This document shows, one piece after another, positions 17,524 to 18,448 of a stretch of 64,000 bases of DNA. Both the position numbers and the translations under genes were made by a program. Origin of the DNA: Qipengyuania sp. JC766 (GTDB lineage: Bacteria > Pseudomonadota > Alphaproteobacteria > Sphingomonadales > Sphingomonadaceae). The stretch's first letter is position 1. Each line of letters starts with the position of its first letter. The notes below the pieces were generated by a model. That model was not told the DNA's origin and did no database searches. It saw nothing but the letters and a program-made list of their open reading frames with translations. Location of the stretch: assembly GCF_040717445.1 (NCBI RefSeq), contig NZ_JBFEFL010000001.1, positions 1,302,001 through 1,366,000 on the forward strand. Direction: 5' to 3'.

Positions 17524-18174
17524 CTAACGCGGGACCATCATCCCGCGCTGTCCCGCGGCCGCAAAGGCGGCGAGGAGCGCGACGACGAAGAAGGTCGTGA
17601 TGAGATCGATCGGCTGGAACATCGGCACGACCGCCAGATGGGCGAGGACCGCCCAGCCGCCCGCGACCAGGAACATCAGGTAATAGGCATAGACCGTCGC
17701 CTGGCTGTTCACGGCCGCGAACAGCTCGTCCGAGCGGCGGTGCGACTGCCAGGCGAAATAGATGCCGGCGAGCATCAGGACGCATACCGCGATGCCGACC
17801 AGCGGCATGGCGAGCGGCCCGACGGGCGCCGCCAGCGACAGCAGGAACAGCCCGATCCCCCATGCGAGCATGGCGAAGCTGGATTGGACGAGCATGGCCT
17901 GCTGCTCGCGCAGTTCGTCCGCGTCTTCGGCCTGCAGGTATTTTTCCCCGAGCGCCGGCGACATCGCGCCGACCAGCACCCCGACGGCCAGCAGCACGTA
18001 GAGTGCGCCGATGACCCCTGCGAACATGCGGGACGGGCCGGCCGCGCCCACCCAGTCGGTATCGAACAGCTGCGTGGTGGCGAACGCGACGAGCCCGCCG
18101 CAGATCGCGCCCGCAATCATCGGGACGACGAGCTTGCGCGTCCACGGTATCGGCTTGCCTTGCTCCTGGTTCAT
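17524..18174 (-). CDS. Multi-pass membrane protein paired with an XRE regulator
   Basis: 216 residues with about six hydrophobic segments (for example VVPMIAGAICGGLVAF, IGALYVLLAVGVLVGAM, VGIAVCVLMLAGIYFAW and LITTFFVVALLAAFAA). I do not recognise a named family. Its start overlaps the regulator's stop (ATGA), so the two are translationally coupled. Small XRE regulators paired with a membrane protein of this size are a recurrent bacterial arrangement, whose function is mostly unknown. Its expression is probably set by the palindromic operator upstream. Confidence 0.8.
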   Translation of the reverse strand: MNQEQGKPIPWTRKLVVPMIAGAICGGLVAFATTQLFDTDWVGAAGPSRMFAGVIGALYVLLAVGVLVGAMSPALGEKYLQAEDADELREQQAMLVQSSFAMLAWGIGLFLLSLAAPVGPLAMPLVGIAVCVLMLAGIYFAWQSHRRSDELFAAVNSQATVYAYYLMFLVAGGWAVLAHLAVVPMFQPIDLITTFFVVALLAAFAAAGQRGMMVPR

Positions 18175-18377
18175 TCTTCGGGCTCCCAGTGATCGATGAA
18201 CAGATCCGGCACGCTCACGGCGAACAGCTTCGCCATGCGCAATGCCAGCGGCAGGGAGGGATCGTACTTGTCGGTCTCGACCGCATTGATGGTCTGCCGC
18301 GATACGCCGAGCCTGCGGGCGAGTTCACCCTGGCTCCAGCCCTTGTCCTCGCGAAAAATCTTCAAGCGGTTTTCCAA
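18171..18377 (-). CDS. Small XRE-family transcriptional regulator
   Basis: 68-residue helix-turn-helix protein of the Cro/C1 YozG-like type. I choose the TTG at 18377 because the protein then begins (M)ENRLKIFREDKGWSQGE, the usual family start, and AGGAG sits 8 bases upstream. Longer starts exist at GTG 18386 and TTG 18401. The HTH runs from WSQGELARRL to VSRQTINAVE, followed by the family signature KYDPSLPLALRMAKLF. It is the first gene of a two-gene operon with the membrane protein. The long palindrome before its RBS suggests autoregulation. Confidence 0.88.
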   Translation of the reverse strand: MENRLKIFREDKGWSQGELARRLGVSRQTINAVETDKYDPSLPLALRMAKLFAVSVPDLFIDHWEPEE

Positions 18378-18394
18378 CCGAATCACTCCTATGC

Positions 18395-18448
18395 CTGACA
18401 AGACCTCTTTACTGTAAAGAAGTCTTGTCAGTCAAGAGCTCTTGTCAG
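18395..18448. promoter_or_regulatory. Operator region of the XRE operon: long palindrome plus extra half-sites
   Basis: A 37-base palindrome centred on T18413 has 18-base arms (18395-18412 and 18414-18431) that differ at one position; each arm ends in CTGACAAGA or its complement. Directly beside it, CAAGAGCTCTTG (18433-18444) is a perfect 12-base palindrome, and TCTTGTCAG repeats at 18423-18431 and 18440-18448. On the minus strand a TTGACT -35-like box (18435-18430) and the expected -10 area fall inside the repeats, so a bound protein would block the promoter. Structure is seen; autorepression by the adjacent XRE protein is inference. Confidence 0.7.

Follow-up and report, generated by a model that had tools for sequence, protein, structure and literature searches.

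Three abutting dyad sites form a conserved candidate autoregulatory operator for a small XRE regulator and its six-helix membrane partner

Promoter regions with three dyads in tandem are familiar from lambda OR and its Cro–CI regulators, where the sites lie a few bases apart and serve two divergent promoters. In Enterococcus, the cytolysin promoter, when repressed, is bound by the small XRE regulator CylR2, and induction needs CylR1, a predicted membrane protein whose mechanism is not known (PMC3709268). Xre-RES systems provide a further precedent, as the Xre complex represses its own promoter via palindromic repeats and a second binding site has been suggested (PMC12204516). Here we describe an operon in which a small XRE regulator precedes a membrane protein gene and three dyad sites cover the putative promoter (Table 1). 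Searches of the available literature collection returned nothing on this operon.

Table 1. Features of the XRE/membrane-protein operon and its upstream region, in positions of the window (the whole 64 kb stretch of DNA analysed).
Feature	Position	Strand	Remarks
Six-helix membrane protein, 216 aa	17524..18174	-	Start overlaps the XRE stop (ATGA)
Small XRE (HTH_3) regulator, 68 aa, CylR2-like	18171..18377	-	TTG start
Shine-Dalgarno-like AGGAG	18386..18390	-	8 bases upstream of TTG 18377
Putative operator O3	18396..18413	-	AGTAAAGAGGTCTTGTCA; 1 mismatch; holds the putative -10 and the putative transcription start
Putative -10, TAAAGA	18406..18411	-	In O3; 18-bp spacer from the -35
Putative operator O2	18413..18430	-	TGACAAGACTTCTTTACA; 0 mismatches; within the promoter spacer
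Putative operator O1	18430..18447	-	TGACAAGAGCTCTTGACT; 1 mismatch to TGWMAAGANNTCTTKWCA; holds the putative -35
Putative -35, TTGACT	18430..18435	-	In O1; TTGACT or TTGACA here in 46 of 47 orthologous promoters

The regulator scores 57.8 bits against PF01381, well past the HTH_3 gathering cut-off of 23. Its best sequence match among solved structures is the PbsX-family regulator 9k3w, on which the available literature collection had no paper, and its closest well-studied solved relative is CylR2 (1utx; E 8.9e-14, residues 3–67 aligned to 4–66). The alignment runs over the full length and the recognition segment is conserved, placing the protein with the CylR2-type single-domain regulators. 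Read from TTG 18377, it matches its orthologues from their first residue, and this codon is most likely the start. The first in-frame TTG, at 18401, is the less likely start, as 18377 has AGGAG 8 bases upstream and fits the orthologues. Membership of a type II toxin-antitoxin family was rejected: HipB, HigA and Y4mF all fell under the NCBIfam cut-off, and the neighbour is a membrane protein without a toxin family. A more general defence or toxin-antitoxin role was set aside too, since the matches were to generic HTH only. Four weaker XRE matches occur in the same genome, and the two inspected (L150 and L151) have different recognition segments. At L151 (G000:C1:743300-746800), small membrane-protein ORFs lie before the XRE gene and another lies after it; there and at L152, in a relative, the genes that come after a small XRE of this type look TraB/GumN-like by eye.

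The XRE stop and the start of the membrane protein gene share four bases (ATGA, 18171–18174), which confirms the stop/start overlap of the gene pair that a first-pass annotation of this DNA called translationally coupled; the layout is common in relatives. The operon is flanked by glnA and tamB, with tamB as the upstream neighbour. The membrane protein was modelled with high confidence (pLDDT 91) as six long helices. None of the Pfam, NCBIfam or PADLOC families matched it, and a comparison of the model with PDB folds gave nothing significant. DUF3169 was considered and rejected, as it stayed below the Pfam cut-off: 5 of 31 members matched weakly (best E 0.0024), and this genome gave no match. 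Three motifs are conserved among the membrane proteins, namely LNVEDAEELREQ between helices 2 and 3, DELMRA between helices 4 and 5, and GRRGM at the C-terminus. All three would be cytoplasmic if the basic N-terminus lies inside. In some relatives the membrane gene is doubled in tandem (L027/L031, L137, L142 and L143). The proteins mark out a family without a name, and the cell appears to set their dose through a dedicated regulator of their own.

The first-pass annotation had been drawn to this region by two inverted repeats, and both are present. A palindrome of 37 bases, with 18-base arms and one mismatch, spans 18395–18431 and is centred on 18413, and a second, perfect palindrome of 12 bases (CAAGAGCTCTTG) spans 18433–18444. 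The 37-mer tops all palindromes of the window with a score of 15, as compared with best scores of 9–14 in 25 dinucleotide shuffles, so that palindromy by itself is only moderately beyond chance and not compelling. Read on the minus strand, the 54 bases resolve into three 18-bp dyad sites (consensus TGTAAAGAGCTCTTTACA, also written TGWMAAGANNTCTTKWCA) whose centres follow one another at exactly 17 bp. Each pair of neighbours, O1/O2 and O2/O3, has one base pair in common. The dyad has T as its first base and A as its last, so that a base shared by two neighbours can match only one of them, which explains why O2 is perfect while O1 and O3 each carry one mismatch. The 37-base palindrome is thus O2 plus O3, centred on their shared base, and the 12-base palindrome makes up the core of O1. 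The earlier proposal of an oversized operator held in that the region could accommodate more than one dimer; its anatomy did not, since in place of one large site with additional half-sites there are three tandem dimer sites at 17-bp spacing.

Conservation in relatives is strong evidence for the sites, more so than their palindromy. A search with the membrane protein matched 22 of 150 genomes of the family, nearly all with a 73–90% identical XRE just upstream, and a profile search of 298 genomes of the order matched 59, almost all of the same family. The membrane proteins are 21–45% identical to that of the window, and the recognition region of the XRE, VSRQTINAVETDKYDPSLPLAL, is invariant in the orthologues. 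A search with the DNA pattern added 56 further named loci, mainly in Erythrobacter, Porphyrobacter, Altererythrobacter, Citromicrobium and their relatives; a protein scan of genome contigs with the membrane protein confirmed no relatives, which all came from the genome search and the DNA pattern. The O1/O2 core had served to pick the DNA-pattern loci, and conservation was therefore recalculated for 56 non-redundant protein-found loci, a distinct set whose equal number is coincidental. Three sites at 17+17 bp were found upstream in 36 of these 56; 11 have lost O2 and keep only O1 and O3, 33 or 34 bp apart; 7 have two sites at 17 bp; and 2 have neither arrangement. With the loose threshold applied, shuffled upstream regions gave about 0.2 chance sites each. 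Across the 56 loci, columns of the operator carried about 1.67 bits of information on average and those of the upstream flank 0.13 bits, and the flanks of the operator are unconserved. Relatives offer a natural series of three-, two- and one-site promoters beneath an essentially unchanged recognition helix.

Individual loci depart from this pattern in several ways. One has a fourth perfect dyad 17 bp upstream of O1, giving four tandem sites, and in some others (L011, L012, L019 and L025) the palindrome runs on past the sites. Three operons (L021, L077 and L132) have just one site, which resembles O3; upstream of it, two of them (L021 and L077) carry TTGTCAAGTATA(T/C)AATGTCC, with its own -10-like sequence, in place of the usual region. 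Among the upstream regions from L009 to L144, the two outer half-sites of the triple operator tend to carry the same variant, TGTAAAG or TGACAAG (55 concordant, 12 discordant). We considered this covariation as a signal of palindrome homogenisation and rejected it, as the counts are suggestive but not significant on the tree (median p 0.125).

The overlap of the palindromic region with a putative -35 and -10, also noted in the first pass, was confirmed. The -10 is weak (TAAAGA, 3/6), and a scan for a consensus promoter gave no match. In the protein-found loci of the three-site (17+17) and O1+O3 (33/34) classes, 46 of 47 promoters have TTGAC(T/A) in O1 and TAAAG(A/C/G) in O3 with 17 or 18 bp between them; the spacer is 18 bp in the former class and 17 or 18 bp in the latter. 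This fixed placement supports the promoter assignment and ties O1 and O3 to the promoter elements, with O2 optional. Where O2 is absent from the O1+O3 class, the -35 is a perfect TTGACA, and the resulting TTGACA-17/18-TAAAGA promoter explains why both site spacings persist. On this assignment, transcription would start within O3. The first-pass view that an operator overlies the promoter of the XRE/membrane operon has strong support.

The sites appear to have no other address in the genome. The first-pass annotation had suggested a genome-wide search with the half-site as a way to a regulon, and no second target emerged. The half-site CTGACAAGA occurs 8 times, 3 of them here, against 9 for a reversed-pattern control, so that outside the operon it stands at chance frequency. 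With up to two mismatches, the full dyad was found in this genome only at the three sites (reversed control, 0), and a search of the same genome with the inner CTTTACNGTAAAG dyad gave no second target. Across 120 genomes of the family, sites with one mismatch lie almost all at the XRE/membrane operon, and most genomes that lack the operon have none. The absence of the dyad elsewhere in its own genome points to a dedicated autoregulator without a visible regulon.

A different regulator might in principle bind the sites while the XRE acts elsewhere, and the genome does encode further XREs of the same type. We consider this improbable, because the sites track this XRE operon across genomes and occur almost nowhere else. 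One relative (G056, locus L152) is informative here: its XRE, 73% identical and with the same recognition region, has no adjoining membrane gene, yet one perfect dyad lies over the -10, which ties the site to the XRE. The simplest reading of the sequences has the XRE bind the dyads and control no operon but its own. Two other accounts seem very unlikely. The long and near-perfect palindrome could suggest an RNA or DNA hairpin, such as a terminator, an attenuator or a recombination site, but modular 18-bp dyads at fixed spacing, an O2 that some lineages dispense with and promoter elements that stay in place do not fit such a structure, and under the promoter placement favoured here only part of O3 would be transcribed. 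Three tandem operators also recall lambda OR and hence a relic of a cI/Cro-type prophage switch; against this, no divergent partner promoter was identified, the membrane protein had no match in the phage and plasmid collections searched, and the operon is present in many genomes of the family.

The location of the three sites over the operon's own promoter, together with their conservation in dozens of related bacteria, makes a dedicated self-regulating switch very probable, and we are confident that the three dyads constitute the operator through which XRE dimers control their own operon. One dimer of the 68-residue protein would bind each 18-bp dyad. Together, the dimers would cover the whole promoter, beginning upstream of the -35 and reaching the transcription start, and would block RNA polymerase; by such autorepression the amounts of the XRE and of the membrane protein translationally coupled to it would be set low. 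The XRE might instead activate transcription, although coverage of both promoter elements argues against it. Binding of the dimers may be cooperative, as proposed in the first pass. A variant of autoregulation, in which neighbouring dimers exclude each other and occupancy alternates between O2 and O1+O3 to give a two-state promoter, is rather unlikely. In its favour, sites of 18 bp whose centres lie 17 bp apart overlap by one base pair, that base can fit only one of the two, and one lineage class keeps O1+O3 with O2 lost. On the other hand, the 7 loci that retain just two adjacent sites at 17 bp would be odd if these were mutually exclusive, and their persistence favours simultaneous binding; moreover, the outermost base may not be needed for half-site contacts. 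Loss of O2 in one class also indicates that abutment of the sites is not required.

By analogy with CylR1/CylR2, the membrane partner could act as effector or sensor and modulate the XRE upon a membrane or envelope signal, a sensing role that we put forward tentatively. More speculative still is a phosphorylation-free, one-target membrane sensing module, in which the six-helix protein controls the CylR2-like XRE, feedback acts only on their own operon and the three base-sharing sites serve as an occupancy counter. The operator is a real and well conserved one, a variant of ordinary autoregulation, and it provides a small XRE subfamily with a DNA code that is precise and open to test.

Lambda OR has separated sites and two divergent promoters, whereas the sites here abut with one shared base and serve a single putative promoter. 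Xre-RES couples an antitoxin to a RES toxin in 4:2 complexes (PMC12204516); in the present operon no toxin family turned up. A close parallel is CylR2/CylR1 of Enterococcus faecalis (CylR2 structures 1utx and 2xiu), since both systems pair a single-domain XRE of 66–68 aa with a membrane protein and the recognition segments are nearly the same (VSRQTIN). They differ in the partner, with three predicted transmembrane helices in CylR1 and six here (a comparison by helix count, with no named family), and in the target, which is a divergent toxin operon for CylR2, while the only site in the genome here is the operon's own promoter. The three tandem sites and the glnA and tamB flanks likewise set this operon apart from CylR2/CylR1.
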